Origin: Verrucomicrobiota bacterium
GTDB lineage: Bacteria; Verrucomicrobiota; Verrucomicrobiia; Opitutales; Opitutaceae
DNA: 46,668 bases
NCBI GenBank assembly: GCA_026398135.1
Contig: JAPLTN010000101.1
Coordinates: 1 to 46,668, forward strand
Reading direction: 5' to 3'
This document shows, one piece after another, positions 11,923 to 39,945 of the stretch (positions within the stretch are counted from its first letter, which is position 1; each line of letters opens with the position of its first letter). Both the position numbers and the translations under genes were made by a program. The notes below the pieces were generated by a model. It saw nothing but the letters and a program-made list of their open reading frames with translations. It was not told where the DNA came from and ran no database searches.

Positions 11923-13605
11923 TCAGCCGACGTATTTTTGGACGATGGGGATGCGGCGGCCGACGCCGAAGGCGAGGGGGGTGATTTTCAGGCCGGGGGC
12001 GGCTTGTTTTCGTTTGTATTCGTTGAGGTCCACTTTGCGGCAGATGTCGCGGACGACGGCGGGCGCGAATCCCCGGGCGGTGAGTTCGTCGCGGCTCAGG
12101 CCTTCCTCGACGTAGCCGGTGAGCAGGGCGTCGAGTTCGTCGTAGGGCGGGAGGCTGTCCTGGTCCACCTGGCCGGGGCGGAGTTCGGCACTGGGTGGTT
12201 TTTCGATGGTGTTTACCGGGATGATTTCTCGCTCGCGGTTGATCCAGCGGCAGAGGGCGTAAACCTGGGTTTTGAAGAGGTCGCTGATCACGGCGAGGCC
12301 GCCGCACATGTCGCCATAGAGGGTGCAGTAACCGACCGCGATTTCGCTCTTGTTGCCGGTGGTGAGGAGCAGCGCGCCGAATTTATTGGAGAGGGCCATC
12401 ATGATCACGCCACGGGTGCGGGCCTGGAGGTTTTCCTCGGTGACGTCGGGGGCGCGTCCGGCGAAGACGGGGCCGAGCGCGGTCTCGGCGGCGGCCACGG
12501 TTTCGGCAATCGCGATGGTCTCGAAGCGGATGCCGAGGTTGGCGGCGAGGATGCGGGCGTCGTCGCGGGAGTGTTGCGAGGAAATGGCGGAGGGCAGGGA
12601 GACGCCTATGACGTTTTCCGCGCCGAGGGCGGCGACGGCGAGTTCGGCCACCAGGGCGGAGTCGATGCCGCCGGAGAGGGCGACGAGGGCGCGGGTGAAA
12701 CCGCTTTTGTGCGCGTAGTCGCGCAGGCCGAGCACGAGGGCGGCGTGGATGTCGGCGAGTTGGGCGGAAGCAGCGGGTAGCGAGTAGCGAGTAGCGAGTA
12801 GGTCGGAGGCGGGAGCGTGGGCGGTGGAGCAGGGCGCGCGGAGTGGAATTTCGACGACGAGGCAGGCTTCGGCGAAGGCAGGCAGGGTGGCGAGCAAGCG
12901 GCCGCCGGGGGCGGCGACGAGGGAGCGGCCGTCGAAGATGAGTTCGTCGTTGCCGCCGATGGCGTTGCAATAAACCACGGGCACGCCGGTTTCGGTGGCG
13001 AGGTCGAGCACGAGGCGTTCGCGCACCCCGGATTTTCCGGCATACCAGGGGCTGGCCGAAAGGTTGATGATGAGGTCAACGCCTTCGTCCTTGAGCTGGG
13101 CGACGGGATCGAAGCGGTGCAGGCGCTGGTCGCCGGGAGATTGGTTGGCCCAGATGTCTTCGCAGATGGTAATGCCGATGCGGTGGCCGGCCCAGGTGAT
13201 CACGGTGGGGGCGTCGGCGGGTTCGAAGTAGCGGTCTTCGTCAAAGACGTCGTAGGTGGGGAGCAGGCATTTTTTGGCGATTTGCTGGATGCGCCCGTGG
13301 TGGCAAAACGCGGCGGCGTTGAAGGCGCGGCGTCCGGTGGTGCCGGGGTTGGCGATCACGGTGCCGACGAGCAGAGGGATGTCGGTGGTGGCGGCGGCGA
13401 GCTCGGCGGTGACGTTTTCCACGTCGGTGACGAAGCGGGTGCGCAGCAACAAGTCGCGCGGGGGATAGCCGCAAACAGCGAGTTCGGGCGTGACCACGAG
13501 TTCGGCCCCGGCGGCGACCAGTTCGCGGTAGGCGGCGAGCAGGCGGCGGAGGTTGCCGGCGAGGTCGCCGACGGTGGGATTGATCTGGGCTAGGCCGATG
13601 CGCAT
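11923..13605 (-). CDS. nadE: Glutamine-dependent NAD+ synthetase
   Basis: 560 aa. The N-terminal glutaminase (nitrilase fold) shows the Glu-Lys-Cys triad: [24 protein letters not shown] and GITICEDIW. The C-terminal synthetase domain has the PP-loop LSGGIDSAL. It amidates deamido-NAD+ to NAD+ using glutamine-derived ammonia. The start at 13605 ([18 protein letters not shown]) is canonical; the frame stays open to 13680 without support. An oddity is the linker between domains (about residues 268-283), which contains LLATRYSL encoded by a tandem tagcgag repeat at 12773-12801. Confidence 0.95.
12773..12801. repeat. Tandem tagcgag repeat inside nadE
   Basis: About three and a half copies of a 7-8 bp unit (gcgggtagcgagtagcgag and continuing). 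It is translated as part of the interdomain linker of NAD synthetase and adds a few residues without breaking the frame. Confidence 0.7.
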
Positions 13606-34046: not shown

Positions 34047-35189
34047 ATGGCTTTTGCAGACGTCTATCGCGGTAAACGTGTTTTGGTAACCGGTCACACC
34101 GGCTTTAAGGGTGCCTGGCTGTGCGAATGGCTGCTCAGCCTTGGTGCCGAGGTCACCGGATTCGCCCTCCCTCCGCCCACCACACCGTCGCTTTTTGAAC
34201 AGCTAAACCTCGCCCCTCGCTTGCGCCATATCGAAGGCGACGTCCGTGACCTTGCCGCCGTGCGCAGCGCTGTGGAACAGGCCAAACCAGACTTCGTTTT
34301 TCACCTCGCCGCCCAGCCTCTCGTCCGCCTTTCCTACGATCAACCGGTGGAGACCTACGCCGTTAACATCATGGGCACGGTCAACGTCTTGGAAGCTGTC
34401 CGCCTCGCCGCGCGCCCCTGCGTGGTCGTCTCCATAACCACCGACAAGTGCTACGAAAATAAGGAATGGGTGCACAGCTACCGCGAAGAAGACCCCATGG
34501 GTGGTTACGACCCCTATAGTTCTTCCAAGGGCGCCGCTGAACTCGTGATCGCTTCCTATCGCCGATCCTATTTCTCGTCCCCCGATTCCCCTGTAAAACT
34601 CGCCTCCGCCCGTGCCGGCAACGTCATCGGCGGCGGCGATTGGGCCCTCGACCGCATTGTCCCCGACTGCATCCGTTCCCTCGCCCGTGGCGAAGCCATT
34701 CCGGTGCGCAATAAAATCGCCACCCGCCCCTGGCAACACGTGCTCGAACCCCTCTCCGGTTACCTCTGGCTGGGGGCCTGCCTATACAACCCTGCGCTCA
34801 CCCCCTACGGCTCCAAGCTCGCCAGCGCCTTCAACTTCGGCCCCGCCCTCGCCTCCAACCGCACCGTCGCCGAGCTTGTCCAGGAAATCCTCAAGCACTG
34901 GCCCGGCCAATGGCTGGATAAGAGCGACCCCCACGCCCTCCACGAAGCTAAACTCCTTAACCTCGCCACCGACAAGGCCCACCACTTCCTTGGTTGGGCT
35001 CCGGCTTGGAATTTCTCCGAAACCTTAAACCAAACCGTCGCCTGGTATCGTTTTGTCGCCAAAAACCAGTCCGACGTTCCCACATTAACCACAGGTCAAA
35101 TCCAAGCCTATTGTGCCGCCGCCAAGACCGCAGGCATTACGTGGGCAACGGCGGAAAAACGCGGAAATTTTGAAACGCTGAAACGCTAA
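34047..35189 (+). CDS. rfbG: CDP-glucose 4,6-dehydratase
   Basis: 380 aa. SDR Rossmann motif VLVTGHTGFKGAWL at residues about 12-25, and catalytic YDPYSSSKGAAEL (YxxxK). ITTDKCYENKEW is typical of CDP-glucose dehydratases. It converts CDP-glucose to CDP-4-keto-6-deoxyglucose. The final residues EKRGNFETLKR before the stop are encoded by a palindromic-repeat left arm (about 35154-35232), in the same reading phase as the insertions in rfbH. Confidence 0.93.
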   Translation: MAFADVYRGKRVLVTGHTGFKGAWLCEWLLSLGAEVTGFALPPPTTPSLFEQLNLAPRLRHIEGDVRDLAAVRSAVEQAKPDFVFHLAAQPLVRLSYDQPVETYAVNIMGTVNVLEAVRLAARPCVVVSITTDKCYENKEWVHSYREEDPMGGYDPYSSSKGAAELVIASYRRSYFSSPDSPVKLASARAGNVIGGGDWALDRIVPDCIRSLARGEAIPVRNKIATRPWQHVLEPLSGYLWLGACLYNPALTPYGSKLASAFNFGPALASNRTVAELVQEILKHWPGQWLDKSDPHALHEAKLLNLATDKAHHFLGWAPAWNFSETLNQTVAWYRFVAKNQSDVPTLTTGQIQAYCAAAKTAGITWATAEKRGNFETLKR

Positions 35190-35240
35190 AATGCTGAAAA
35201 CGCTGAAACGGTGGAATTTTGAAACGCTAAAATGCGGGAA
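35154..35240 (+). repeat. Palindromic repeat P1 (GAAA-rich left arm)
   Basis: Iterated cggaaa/tgctgaaa/cgctaaaa units beginning within the end of rfbG and continuing to about 35240. Together with the TTTC-rich arm at 35636-35805 it encloses the four-helix-bundle gene in inverted orientation. Confidence 0.8.
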
Positions 35241-35632: not shown

Positions 35633-35635
35633 TCT

Positions 35636-35805
35636 AATTTCAAAATTTCCGCGTTTCCGAATTTCAAATTTTTCCGCCCGTCCCTGCCACCACTCAGACT
35701 TCCAAAATTTCCGAATTTTAAATTTTCAAATTTTTCCGTCCGTCCGTCCCTCCCTCTGCTACGACTTTCCGCGTTTCCGAATTTCAAAATTTTCTGCCCC
35801 GTTTT
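35636..35805 (-). repeat. Palindromic repeat P2 (TTTC-rich right arm)
   Basis: Iterated tttcaaaatttccgcg/tttccgaatttc units separated by pyrimidine-rich ccgtccgtccctccc stretches, running up to the rfbH start. Inverted relative to P1. Confidence 0.8.
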
Positions 35806-35813
35806 TTTCCGAC

Positions 35814-37856
35814 ATGTCCTCTCCCGCCGAACTCAAAGCTCAGATACTCAAGCTCACCCGAGACTACTCCGCCCTCATGCACAAGGGCCAGCGCCCCGGT
35901 GATGACGCGGCCCACGCGCCCTGGGCCCCCGGCCAGACCATCCCCTACGCCGGCCGCGTATTCGACGAAAACGAAGTCGAAGCCGCCGTCGGCGCCACCC
36001 TCGACTTCTGGCTCACCCTCGGCCCCGAAGGCGAAGCCTTTGAGAAGGAACTCGCCGCCCTCCTCGGCGTGAAACACAGCCTCCTGGTCAACTCCGGCTC
36101 CTCCGCCAACCTCGTCGCCCTCGCCACCTTCACCACCCACAAACTCCCGCCGCATAAGCGCATCCTCCCCGGCGACGAGGTCATCACCGTTGCCGCCGGC
36201 TTCCCCACCACCGTCGCCCCCATCATCCAGTCCGGCGCCGTCGCCGTCTTCCTCGACAACGACCCCATCACCGGAAACATCCGCCCCGAACAGCTCGAAG
36301 CTGCCTACGCCCCCGGCAAGACCAAGGCCGTCATGATCGCCCACGCCCTGGGCAACCCCTTCGACCTCTGCGCCGTCCTCGCCTTCTGCCGTAAGCACGA
36401 CCTCTGGCTCATCGAGGACAATTGTGATGCCCTCGGCTGCACTTACTCGATGCCCGAATCACGTGCCCGAGCCTTGGGGTTAGATCACCTCCTCAAGATT
36501 GCGGAAGCGAATGCGGCAGAAAACGCGGAAATTCTAAAACGCGGAAATGCGGAAATGCTCACGGAAAACGCGGAAAATCTAAAAACGGAAAATTTGAAAT
36601 CGGAGTCCGACCTTTCAAAATTTCAAAATTTTAGCGTTTCAAAATCTTCCTACGATCGCGTTTCAAAATTTTCCGCCCCCCGTTCCCCCAAGATCCCCTT
36701 TATCCGCGACGGCATCCTGACCGCCTACACCGGCACTTTTGGCGACATCTCCACCCAATCCTTCTACCCTCCGCACCACCTGACGATGGGCGAAGGTGGC
36801 GCGGTAAACATCATCAGCAAACCCCCGCTCAAGACCTACGCCGAGAGCTTCCGCGATTGGGGTCGTGACTGCTGGTGCGCCTCGGGTAAGGACGACACCT
36901 GTCATAAACGTTTCGGCTGGCAGCTCGGCGAGCTCCCCAAGGGCTACGACCACAAATACATCTACAGCCACCTCGGCTACAACCTGAAGCCCCTCGACCC
37001 GCAGGCCGCCATCGGCCGCCAGCAACTTAAAAAACTCCCTGCCTTCATCGAAGCCCGCAAACGCAACTGGGAGACCCTGCGCGCTGGTCTCGACTGCGTA
37101 TCCGACGTCCTCGATTTTACGCTCCCCGCGCATGCTGTTCGATGGGTGCCGCCAAGCGAAAGAGCGCGAACGGAAAAGCTGAAATTAGGAAATTCTGAAA
37201 TTTTGAAATTCGAAAGCGCGGCAGAAAACGCGGTAACGCGGTCGGAAAACGCTGAAAATTTGAAACGCGGAAATGCTGAAACTGCACCGGAAAAAGCGGA
37301 AAATTTGAAAAGCGGAAATGCGGACATTCAGAGTTCTGGAGTTTCAAAATTTCAAAATTTCAGCGTTTCAGAATTTTCCGACGTTCGCGTTTCAGAATTT
37401 TCCGACGTTCCCGTTTCAGAATTTCAAAATTTCAAAATCTCAAAATTTGATTTCAGCGCCTGCTTCGAATGGGACGCCACCGGGTGCCGTGTCGATACCT
37501 CCTGGTTCGGCTTCATGCTCCGGGTCAAAGCTGGCGCCCCCTTCAGCCATACCGACCTCGCCCGCGCGCTCGACGAGAAGAAGATTGGCAACCGCATGTT
37601 CTTCGGCGGCAACCTTCTGCGCCAGCCCGTCTTTGTTCAAATGCGCCAGGACCGCCCCCACGCCATCCGCCTCGTCGGTTCCAACGGCTCCACCGTTTCG
37701 CCTGTCAACAGCTCCACTATCGCCGCCGCCTTCCCCGGGGCCGATGCGATCATGAACGAAGCAATATTTCTCGGCACCTACCCCGGCCTGACCGCAGAAA
37801 TGCTGGCCTACGAAATCCAAGTCATCCGCGACTTCGTGGCCGCTAGAAGGAAGTGA
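35814..37856 (+). CDS. rfbH: CDP-4-keto-6-deoxyglucose-3-dehydratase with two in-frame repeat insertions
   Basis: 680 aa against about 440 for the family. This PMP/[2Fe-2S] enzyme removes the C3 hydroxyl on the way to CDP-3,6-dideoxyhexoses. Retained key residues: Cys204 (EDNCDALG), His321/His322 (SFYPPHHLTMGEGG, where His replaces the usual PLP lysine), and Cys353, Cys355, Cys363 (RDCWCASGKDDTC). Insertion 1 is residues about 212-305, between CDALGCTY and TGTFGDIS. Insertion 2 is about 443-546, before FSACFEWD. Both are built from palindromic-repeat DNA read as ENLKRGNAE and SKFQNFSVS. The frame is intact throughout. It may be functional with disordered loops, or processed or inactive. Confidence 0.9.
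   Translation: MSSPAELKAQILKLTRDYSALMHKGQRPGDDAAHAPWAPGQTIPYAGRVFDENEVEAAVGATLDFWLTLGPEGEAFEKELAALLGVKHSLLVNSGSSANLVALATFTTHKLPPHKRILPGDEVITVAAGFPTTVAPIIQSGAVAVFLDNDPITGNIRPEQLEAAYAPGKTKAVMIAHALGNPFDLCAVLAFCRKHDLWLIEDNCDALGCTYSMPESRARALGLDHLLKIAEANAAENAEILKRGNAEMLTENAENLKTENLKSESDLSKFQNFSVSKSSYDRVSKFSAPRSPKIPFIRDGILTAYTGTFGDISTQSFYPPHHLTMGEGGAVNIISKPPLKTYAESFRDWGRDCWCASGKDDTCHKRFGWQLGELPKGYDHKYIYSHLGYNLKPLDPQAAIGRQQLKKLPAFIEARKRNWETLRAGLDCVSDVLDFTLPAHAVRWVPPSERARTEKLKLGNSEILKFESAAENAVTRSENAENLKRGNAETAPEKAENLKSGNADIQSSGVSKFQNFSVSEFSDVRVSEFSDVPVSEFQNFKISKFDFSACFEWDATGCRVDTSWFGFMLRVKAGAPFSHTDLARALDEKKIGNRMFFGGNLLRQPVFVQMRQDRPHAIRLVGSNGSTVSPVNSSTIAAAFPGADAIMNEAIFLGTYPGLTAEMLAYEIQVIRDFVAARRK
36447..36728 (+). 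repeat. Palindromic repeat P3, in-frame insertion 1 in rfbH
   Basis: 282 bp (94 codons). The repeat core at about 36501-36672 has a left arm gcggaaattctaaaacgcgg and onward, a centre aaatcggagtccgacctttc, and a right arm tttcaaaattttagcgtttc. Left codes AENLKTENLKSES, right codes LSKFQNFSVSKS. Confidence 0.88.
37140..37451 (+). repeat. Palindromic repeat P4, in-frame insertion 2 in rfbH
   Basis: 312 bp (104 codons). Core at about 37170-37450: left arm codes ENAENLKRGNAE and EKAENLKSGNAD. Centre attcagagttctggagtttc (37326-37345) is nearly identical to the centre of P6. The right arm codes KFQNFSVSEFSDVRVSEF. Confidence 0.88.
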
Positions 37857-37857
37857 T

Positions 37858-38015
37858 ATGAAAAAACGAAAATGCTGAAACGCGGAAATTTTGAAATCCG
37901 AACTTTCAGAATTTTAAACTTTCAAAATTTTCCTACTCTTCCGCGTTTCACAATTTTCCCGACCAGCGTTTCAAAATTTCCGCGTTTCAAAATTTCAATT
38001 TTTTTCCTTCATCCG
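37858..38015. repeat. Palindromic repeat P5, intergenic
   Basis: Immediately after the rfbH stop. Left arm aaatgctgaaacgcggaaat, centre tttgaaatccgaactttc, right arm with several gcgtttcaaaatttc units to about 38010. Confidence 0.8.
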
Positions 38016-38075: not shown

Positions 38076-38129
38076 TCCTTGCCGCACAGCCTTTTCATCG
38101 TCTGCTTCAGCCATTCAGCCATTCCTCCC

Positions 38130-38243
38130 TTCAGCCCTTTTCTTTCCTAACCGCTAAATATCGCTAAAGTCCGCTAAATCAGAATTTTAATGTAGAGTCG
38201 TTGCTTGCCGACGACCGCTCAGAAACCAAACCCTTTTAAACCA
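38130..38243 (+). repeat. Direct repeat of about 113 bp, copy 1
   Basis: Begins ttcagcccttttctttcc and runs through a GCTAAAT triad, cagaattttaatgtag and the hairpin-forming gtcgttgcttgccgacgacc to ccttttaaaccac. Copy 2 lies 311 bp downstream. Confidence 0.8.
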
Positions 38244-38440
38244 CGGAGTGCACGAAGAGCACGGAATTGGGATCCAAGTCATTAGTCATTTCCCTTTTCA
38301 ACCGTTCAGCCTTTCATGCTTTCTGTCCTTTTCATCCACTAGCTCTACCAGCTTACCAGCCCTACTAGCTCCATTCCAACCACGGATTGCACAGATCACA
38401 CGGATTCAAACCGGATACCGCCCCCTTCAGCCTTTCAGTC

Positions 38441-38553
38441 TTTCAGCCCTTTTCTTTCTAAACCGCTAAATATCGCTAAAATCCGCTAAATCAGAATTTT
38501 AATGTAGGGTCGTTGCTCGCCGACGACCGCTCAGAGCCCAAACCATTTTAACC
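38441..38553 (+). repeat. Direct repeat of about 113 bp, copy 2
   Basis: Differs from copy 1 at only a handful of positions, including a better hairpin GGTCGT-tgctcgccg-ACGACC. Each copy ends at the start of a different iteron triad. Confidence 0.8.
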
Positions 38554-38767
38554 ACTAAGAACGCGAAGGCTCACGAAGTTTCAGCTCAAGTCATTATTCG
38601 TTAGTCATTTTTGATTATCAACTTACTAGCCCTACTAGCTCTAACAGCTTACCAGCTCCGCTCCGCTTCAGCCTTTTAGTCCTTCAGCCTTTTTTCCGCC
38701 TAGCTACCAGCTCTACCAGCCTACTAGCTTACCAGCTTATCACCTCCTCGCTCCCCGCTCCCGTACC

Positions 38768-39232
38768 ATGAAACCACGCGTATACATCGAGACCACCGTC
38801 GTCAGCTACCTGACGGCCCGGCCCTCGCGTGAAGCTTTGCAGGAGGGAAGACGTCAGCTTACGGTCGATTGGTGGACTAAAAAAAGAACGGAATTCGAGT
38901 TCATCGTTTCGCCACTGGTATTTGTCGAGGCTGGCAAGGGTGATGTTAAGGCTGCGACGGCCCGGGTGGAGGCAATAAAGAATCTGCCGATTTTGGCCCT
39001 CGATGATCGAGCACGCTCACTCGCGAGGGCGCTCATTGCACCCGGCGCTATACCGGGCAAAGCCACCGACGATGCCGCGCACATCGCGATTTGCTCCGTA
39101 AACTCGATTCCTTATTTGCTTACTTGGAATTTTAAACACATAGCCAACGCGGCTATTCGCCTAAAGCTTGATTACCTTTGTGCAATCAACGGATACAAGT
39201 TGCCTACCATATGCACACCGGAGGAATTATGA
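38768..39232 (+). CDS. PIN-domain protein (VapC-like)
   Basis: 154 aa. Opens with KPRVYIETTVVSYLTARPS, the PIN start in which Glu8 replaces the usual first Asp. The acidic C-terminal motif is KATDDAAHIAIC, followed by PYLLTWNFKHIANA, common in this PIN subgroup. Probable endoribonuclease toxin. The gene overlaps the next by 4 bp. The toxin-like gene is first here, the reverse of the vapBC pair at 28.5 kb. It is bracketed by repeat mosaics inside the polysaccharide island. Confidence 0.8.
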   Translation: MKPRVYIETTVVSYLTARPSREALQEGRRQLTVDWWTKKRTEFEFIVSPLVFVEAGKGDVKAATARVEAIKNLPILALDDRARSLARALIAPGAIPGKATDDAAHIAICSVNSIPYLLTWNFKHIANAAIRLKLDYLCAINGYKLPTICTPEEL

Positions 39233-39722: not shown

Positions 39723-39821
39723 TGTCTGATACAGGCCTTACGCAAGAGCACGAAAACCGCAGAACCCAACCCATTTTTAACCGCTAATATCCTGTAAACT
39801 AGCTATTAAGTCATAAAGCAC

Positions 39822-39945
39822 GGAAATGCTAAAAAGCGGAAATGCTGAAATTCAGAGTTACGGAGTTTCAAATTTTCAGAATTTTAAAATTTCCGTTTTT
39901 TCCGTCTCTTCCGCGTTTCAAAATTTCAACTTTTTTCCGTCCTCC
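39822..39945. repeat. Palindromic repeat P6, intergenic
   Basis: Left arm ggaaatgctaaaaagcgg and onward, centre attcagagttacggagtttc (39849-39868), right arm tttcaaattttcagaatttt through gcgtttcaaaatttcaac. The centre matches P4 in rfbH at all but two positions. Confidence 0.85.

Follow-up and report, generated by a model that had tools for sequence, protein, structure and literature searches.

We analysed a 46,668-nucleotide (nt) stretch of DNA from a Verrucomicrobiota bacterium of the family Opitutaceae (assembly GCA_026398135.1, contig JAPLTN010000101.1, positions 1 to 46,668; hereafter the window), and found that its rfbH gene, of the CDP-4-keto-6-deoxyglucose-3-dehydratase type, carries two in-frame blocks of palindromic repeat DNA of the same type as repeats lying between genes nearby. 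We interpret these blocks, with a probability of about 0.6, as non-autonomous palindromes of low-complexity words that are at home at gene boundaries, and that survive and are translated when they come to lie in tolerant loops of enzymes. Junk-like repeat DNA appears in this way to have been turned into new protein segments. The original prediction, made from the letters of this stretch, was right about the in-frame palindromic repeats of rfbH, but captured only a small part of a picture that includes several unrelated families of words and a number of other genes.

The excess length of the 680-residue RfbH, which that prediction had ascribed to in-frame palindromic blocks, was confirmed to have this origin in part. 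The open reading frame (ORF) is stop-free through all 680 codons; its product scores 584.8 bits against the NCBIfam RfbH profile NF011936, well within the family at a cut-off of 423 bits, and NCBIfam, Pfam and solved relatives agree on its identity as RfbH. The solved RfbH structure 3bcx pairs only with residues 33-212, 306-434 and 560-675, leaving residues ~213-305 (site 1) and ~435-559 (site 2) without a partner. Because nearer relatives have a native site 1 loop some 33 residues longer (29 of 101 rows, four of these being repeat records), the repeat-type blocks are best set at residues 229-293 and 449-549; the two places are those first proposed, but the limits are slightly narrower than the ~212-305 and ~443-546 given then. 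Cys353, Cys355 and Cys363, which we take to be the Fe-S residues of RfbH, and His321/His322, presumably its cofactor residues at the pyridoxal phosphate site, are unchanged throughout a 40-row RfbH alignment, in keeping with the expectation that the inserts spare them.

Both blocks are inverted repeats, with detectable inverted arms, of which the left is GAAA-rich and the right TTTC-rich, and both are degenerate arrays of 8-nt units with a register spacing of 8. We refer to these GAAA/TTTC words as type A (unit GAAANNNK, 8 nt, degenerate, arms inverted). Arm and register analysis bore out that the blocks share their type with the intergenic repeat nearby and that both are read in the same phase; the idea that units change length in multiples of three did not survive it, as the unit is 8 nt and register spacings include 8, 37, 44, 45 and 65. 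The blocks also stand apart in composition, with a G+C content of 0.44 (block 1) and 0.40 (block 2) against 0.63 in the remainder of rfbH. Allowing up to two mismatches, the type A octamer pattern has 96 overlapping matches in this genome, against 7 for the reversed control; the exact pattern has 32, against 0. Block 2 folds as RNA far better than its own shuffles (z -4.0). A hairpin tip common to several word types (CGGAGTCCG, GTTCCGAAC) is suggestive, and was set aside as an observation from 17 folds without shuffled controls. Positions of the arms and of the neighbouring arrays are collected in Table 1.

Table 1. Features of the window discussed in the text, in window coordinates.
Feature	Positions	Strand	Details or basis
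rfbH, CDP-4-keto-6-deoxyglucose-3-dehydratase type, 680 codons, two in-frame palindromic blocks	35814..37856	+	ORF, profile and solved-structure matches
Site 1 block of rfbH	36498..36692	+	residues ~229-293; GAAA arm ~36502-36605, tip GAAATCGGAGTCCGA, TTTC arm ~36613-36690
Site 2 block of rfbH	37158..37459	+	residues ~449-549; GAAA arm ~37173-37330, TTTC arm ~37339-37449
rfbH leader	35633..35813	+	sense-strand TTTC-type arrays up to the start codon
Non-coding palindrome copy directly after rfbH	37857..38006	+	
GAAA arm forming the last codons of the upstream rfbG-like gene	35156..35240	+	gene ends ...ATAEKRGNFETLKR; arm continues past the stop
Intergenic palindrome	39815..39940	+	same type as the rfbH blocks
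Intergenic stretch with other word families	38100..38768	+	TTCAGCC, CGCTAAAT, CTACCAGC, GTCATTAGTCATT; pyrimidine words at the end, before ORF 38768
NadE-type gene	11923-13605	-	
Heptamer array in the NadE-type gene	12772..12801	-	CTACTCG units; 10-residue peptide between the CN_hydrolase and NAD_synthase domains

The same two loops are empty, or filled with other words, in related enzymes. RfbH was found in 6 of 15 genus genomes (E <= 1e-40) and 21 of 150 family genomes (E <= 1e-60), and insert types were read by hand from 101 RfbH rows and the DNA of their loci. Both loops are short in most close relatives of the window RfbH. At site 1, type A is restricted to the window and genome G075; at site 2 it occurs in these two, in G153 and, in short form, in G024. 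The site 2 insert of locus L090 is a related TTCGCG form, which we labelled apart from type A. Other vocabularies take the same places elsewhere: the rfbH of G158 has CTCCCCGCTCCC at site 1 and 76 nt of CAACAACC/GTTGTTG at site 2, that of G152 has CAACAACC both near the N-terminus and at site 1, with AAGGTTGA/TCAACC at site 2, and in a metagenome-assembled genome (MAG) named as Luteolibacter (L093) site 1 holds AACCAAGAACT and site 2 a 15-nt tandem. RfbH loops of an Elusimicrobia-named MAG (L111) and a Limisphaerales-named MAG (L118) contain CCAATCCTC and GGAAATC words, respectively. We rejected the possibility that the insertions are a conserved extra domain: alignment to close homologues, the check called for at the outset, revealed variable loops at both sites and no conserved domain.

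This comparison also bears on whether the blocks were created by metagenome assembly or binning. The window genome is in 117 contigs and repeats can misassemble; such an artefact is nevertheless extremely unlikely, because type A fills both rfbH loops in G075, which belongs to the same genus and is assembled as one contig, and word inserts occupy these loops in other assemblies too, with their frames kept. The artefact that the original prediction had named as the alternative to its reading therefore did not appear. Pure tandem GAAAAGCT arrays lie at the ends of contigs G024:C60 and G024:C189, one of which carries rfbH, and such arrays therefore probably break assemblies. Separately, near-identical type A arrays with shared flanks lie on two contigs of the window genome, at G000:C18 ~16900 and G000:C42 ~73516, in a duplicated stretch near a contig end.

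A tree of RfbH places these differences between close relatives. It was built from 57 of the 101 rows, on the 474 alignment columns that are occupied in 85% of rows or more, after removal of 40 distant loci (numbered 127 and above) and of four duplicate records under other ids (L091, L094, L098, L104); L024 was not in the RfbH set, since the motif was not found there. The sister of the window RfbH is L036 of G158, with 94% identity in the core and support of 100/99, and it has neither of the window's word types; L039, next to the pair, has no insert. Word inserts are present in 8 of the 57 rows at site 1, where the fewest changes that explain them are 7, and in 11 of 57 at site 2, where they are 10 (9 before L089 and L090 were labelled). 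A bolder account, which we regard as unlikely, is that a writing system makes and rewrites hairpin arms from short unit templates, swapping the vocabulary while keeping site and frame, with the rfbH loops as standing landing sites that are supplied again and again with fresh coding sequence. At a third site, L036 of G158 has an array of TTCAACC words (GSNGSTVQPVNSSTI), and the window RfbH has a nearly identical peptide at residues ~622-636 without clear words; judged from the two sequences, site 3 resembles an older insertion whose repeat structure is fading.

Over 170 nt the two window blocks share 81% identity (E 1.9e-33) and are in the same phase, and the best match to them outside the window is 77% over 73 nt; their shared phase would be explained if one block copied the other, already open block. 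A second element, type B (the CAACAACC type), occurs without gaps as a 76-nt unit in three places, G158 site 2, G152 site 1 and the G152 N-terminus, its copies sharing 60, 62 and 64 of 76 positions pairwise, all in the same frame. Windowed identity around the site 1 left flank (77/90 to G075, 78/90 to the sister) gives too little to decide on gene conversion with breakpoints at the insert, which we set aside. In a rival explanation, arrays grew in place from chance repeats by local slippage and convergence, helped by biased codon use and with no movement. Degenerate copies of 7-8-nt units fit this, pure tandems exist (the arrays of G024 and the 15-nt tandem of L093), and within the genus the type B element is limited to rfbH. 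We nonetheless consider slippage alone improbable, as the same word families recur at many places in the genome, the two arms are inverted copies, ungapped 76-nt copies occupy three different sites, and such arrays are rare in codon-shuffled controls.

Block 1 has no stops in the rfbH frame against 3 and 1 in the other frames, and block 2 none against 6 and 4. Among arrays simulated after mostly non-coding copies, some of whose training stretches overlap gene ends, only 5.1% of block-1-like and 0.65% of block-2-like arrays are open in a given frame. The arms differ greatly in this respect: a TTTC arm alone is open in 80% (block-1-like) or 73% (block-2-like) of simulations, against 6.4% and 1.0% for a GAAA arm. 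The suggestion that the element is adapted to be coding-neutral is thus not upheld, and we rejected coding neutrality by design: simulated arrays are mostly closed, with a block-2-like array open by chance in only 0.65% of cases, and only the TTTC arm is usually open.

An AlphaFold model built on the 40-row RfbH alignment (mean pLDDT, the predicted local distance difference test, of 83; 401 of 680 residues at 90 or above) places both blocks outside the folded core, as helices first and low-confidence chain after. The modelled helices, 224-262 and 447-484, cover almost all of the GAAA arm at site 1 and the beginning of the one at site 2; pLDDT falls below 50 at 269-286, which is most of the site 1 TTTC arm, and at 486-531, comprising the remainder of the site 2 GAAA arm and most of its TTTC arm. 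The core has weak spots of its own, as residues 320-325 also score below 50, and within 320-390 the mean over some ten-residue blocks is only 57-73. The long helices predicted for a large part of each GAAA arm, and the recurrence of inserts in the same loops, could be taken to mean that the inserts were selected because they add a function to the enzyme, for example as interaction helices, and are not tolerated passengers. We think this very unlikely: sister enzymes have unrelated peptides, or none, at the same place, and the remaining parts of the blocks, the TTTC arms above all, are modelled as low-confidence chain. We infer tolerance rather than a function in the enzyme, with probably little effect on its activity.

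Where arrays lie between genes, the TTTC arm is usually close ahead of a start codon. Stretches of this genome (G000) chosen for their hits gave 14 type A array rows outside the window; polarity could be scored in 11, since two have no called gene downstream and one only forms the other half of a palindrome already counted. In all 11 scorable rows the next gene is read in the sense of the TTTC strand, and 8 of the 11 end within 24 nt of a start as called by a simple gene caller. A second family, type H (GTCATT), has 45 matches at about 29 separate places, against 0 for its control. Among its 18 places with a fetched locus, 9 are intergenic and 9 lie in called genes, 4 of them 40 codons or more from the called start and 5 nearer; by the same simple caller, 8 of the 9 intergenic arrays run in the same sense as a start codon, and 6 of 9 lie within 36 nt of it. 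Across the family, the exact type A pattern is present in 37 of 150 genomes and 22 of 49 genera, mostly with few matches each, and the reversed control has one match in each of five of these 150 genomes; G024 has 60 exact matches, many from pure tandems. In the repeat-rich stretch after rfbH, ORF 38768-39232 has, by eye, the look of a PIN-domain (VapC-type) protein.

Other genes contain arrays as well. To count them we relied on a lag scan, which scores tandem similarity at the non-triplet lags 7, 8, 10 and 11 in genes of at least 100 codons (score at least 11) with codon-shuffled controls; a regular-expression word scan is illustrative only. In the window and in contig stretches chosen for type A matches, 17 of 248 genes have non-triplet arrays, against 0.67 per codon-shuffled set. 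The array begins past codon 30 in 12 of the 17, although two of these twelve, scored at lag 11, resemble simple repeats rich in C or G; in the other 5 it lies within 30 codons of the called start and is a possible leader. Blind sampling of this genome gave only 2 of 181 genes, against the 17 of 248 in these hit-chosen stretches, so that arrays are clustered, not evenly spread or genome-wide.

In several genes the insert is in a recognisable loop or linker. DnaE (L216), the replicative polymerase alpha subunit, has an in-frame palindrome of GTCATTG words between two conserved segments, within residues 465-510, where the polymerase 3e0d has 4 residues. A nitrate-reductase-like enzyme has a 12-residue insert that is missing in 26 of 26 family homologues, and in a second loop it has a palindrome of GTCATT words where other genera have other palindromes; those of L197 and L192 are in-frame and of GTAG type, and the remaining genera were judged by eye. 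CheB has a word array in the linker between its two domains, comparable in placement to that of the NadE-type gene (Table 1), and a Methyltransf_32 protein also carries one. In an LptA-like protein (L174 15562-16158, minus strand) the signal peptide is made of GTCATTG heptamers (LLSLVIGHWSLVISALA).

A good functional parallel to these inserts is that drawn by the original prediction, with Rickettsia palindromic elements (RPEs), described in two reports as palindromes that have inserted in frame into conserved genes unrelated to one another (PMC10969869, PMC3733652). The rfbH-type elements likewise lie in frame in conserved genes and have intergenic copies. RPE families as described there are about 150 bp long with a recognisable sequence and peptide, whereas the elements here are degenerate arrays of variable length, several families of which swap at one site.

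A second parallel is with repetitive extragenic palindromes (REPs) found within genes, and it brings with it a rival explanation: the elements may be REP- or RPE-type mobile palindromes, perhaps a degenerate branch of GTAG/CGTC REPs, moved by a Y1 transposase of the REP-associated tyrosine transposase (RAYT) kind. Opitutus terrae belongs to the same family, Opitutaceae, as the window genome. In a survey, O. terrae is reported with the most intragenic GTAG REPs and R. conorii with the most CGTC ones, and intragenic REPs lie inside ORFs, sometimes two per gene, many of them in replication and repair genes (PMC3733652). The elements here resemble them in being palindromic, in having both intergenic and in-frame copies, and in occurring twice in one gene. 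The genome has five Y1 transposase matches, of which three adjoin GTAG-tagged palindromes (on both sides in L248, on one side in L246 and L249) and appear REPtron-like; the window itself has similar GTAG-tagged palindromes to those at L248, at 38192-38216 (GTAGAGTCGTTGCTTGCCGACGACC) and 38504-38528 (GTAGGGTCGTTGCTCGCCGACGACC), and GTAG-type palindromes sit in the same nitrate-reductase-like loop of two other genomes (L197, L192). Near the Y1 match of L250 there are CGCTAAA words and a period-10 array, and a TCAACC pair lies in the flank of L249.

We nevertheless judge this origin unlikely. The REPs of that survey are 20-40 bp long and tagged with GTAG or CGTC, the GTAG ones being linked to RAYTs (PMC3733652), whereas the rfbH blocks are arrays of 8-nt units with neither a fixed sequence nor such linkage. 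Their ends have no GTAG or CGTC tag; internally, CTAC occurs once in block 1 and GACG twice in block 2. A type A array is present in the fetched flanks of none of the five Y1 matches. Lacking both tags and a fixed sequence, the rfbH blocks are not filed as REPs; by analogy, they would work like RPEs and intragenic REPs without these two features.

Other systems share single properties. TAACTGA heptamers of Beggiatoaceae and cyanobacteria lie mostly just before start codons, though some copies are found within ORFs, oriented so that the frame stays open (PMC4679880), which recalls the type A and type H arrays, mostly close upstream of called starts outside the window. The TAACTGA repeats are one exact heptamer in direct repeats, with a single indirect repeat reported, whereas type A is a degenerate 8-nt unit with inverted arms; their copies within ORFs are mostly at the protein periphery, and the text consulted reports no swapping of words within one loop (PMC4679880). 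Tandem repeats of Borgs are similarly fast-evolving, lie between and inside genes and create new disordered protein segments (PMC9879509), but the arrays here are mostly of 7-8 nt, imperfect and often palindromic. Coding palindromes in Nematomorpha mitochondria are long inverted repeats in translated genes, in which both arms encode native conserved regions (PMC6649704); here the palindromes form extra loops. With regard to miniature inverted-repeat transposable elements, the arms of the rfbH blocks are inverted, and no target-site duplication was seen by eye in the aligned sites, where no systematic search for one was made. Among the matches listed in open PubMed Central, by title and start of abstract, none described word arrays in frame in Verrucomicrobia or swapping in protein loops.

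A number of results weigh against our reading of the elements as boundary palindromes surviving in tolerant loops. In blind samples the lag scan found 2 of 181 genes in this genome against 1.0 expected, and 5 of 296 in G075 against 0.33 expected, with one clear case in each; intergenic stretches at the same score gave 4 of 136 and 0 of 192, respectively. Gene starts come from a simple codon-usage caller, so that arrays near called starts may be leaders, and word types were assigned manually. For block 1, RNA folding is no better than that of shuffled sequence (z -0.8). At least one frame is open in three of four short non-coding window copies tested (37857-38006 one, 35633-35813 two, 39815-39940 one, the rfbG tail none); short copies can therefore pass by chance, and short or TTTC-rich pieces pass easily as coding. 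No mobilising enzyme for the arrays was found, the candidates being the five Y1 matches, whose fetched flanks have no type A array. A search of the 15 genus genomes (E <= 0.001) found no other full-length match to type B and one 28-nt match in G157, with the G152 assembly 79% complete; going by these matches, the type B element would not be dispersed through the genome, which speaks against free dispersal of that element.

On the reading that we prefer, the element is built of 7-10-nt words and has three parts: a left arm rich in purines, a short tip, and a right arm rich in pyrimidines. It usually resides where genes meet, the pyrimidine arm lying in the sense strand shortly ahead of a start codon and, around the rfb genes, a purine arm lying at a stop codon or past it. 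Palindromes also lie within genes, both in hot regions of this genome and in relatives, and copies would survive and be translated in the cell where they keep a frame open and fall in a loop or linker that is exposed and tolerates changes of length. Slippage and substitution of units would rapidly rewrite the arrays, and copies would be pasted between loops of one gene in the same phase, perhaps by single-strand or hairpin copying. By this route rfbH may have gained its two blocks.

We suggest that these loops are a natural record of the passage from non-coding repeat to protein, in which an empty loop, an array and a reworded array can be compared at one site in close relatives, and which spans a replicative polymerase as well as ordinary enzymes. 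They are also a warning for annotation, as such peptides would be translated repeats, not domains. If the route by which the arrays are written or moved were found, the origin and spread of REP-like repeats would become testable beyond Rickettsia and the enterobacteria.

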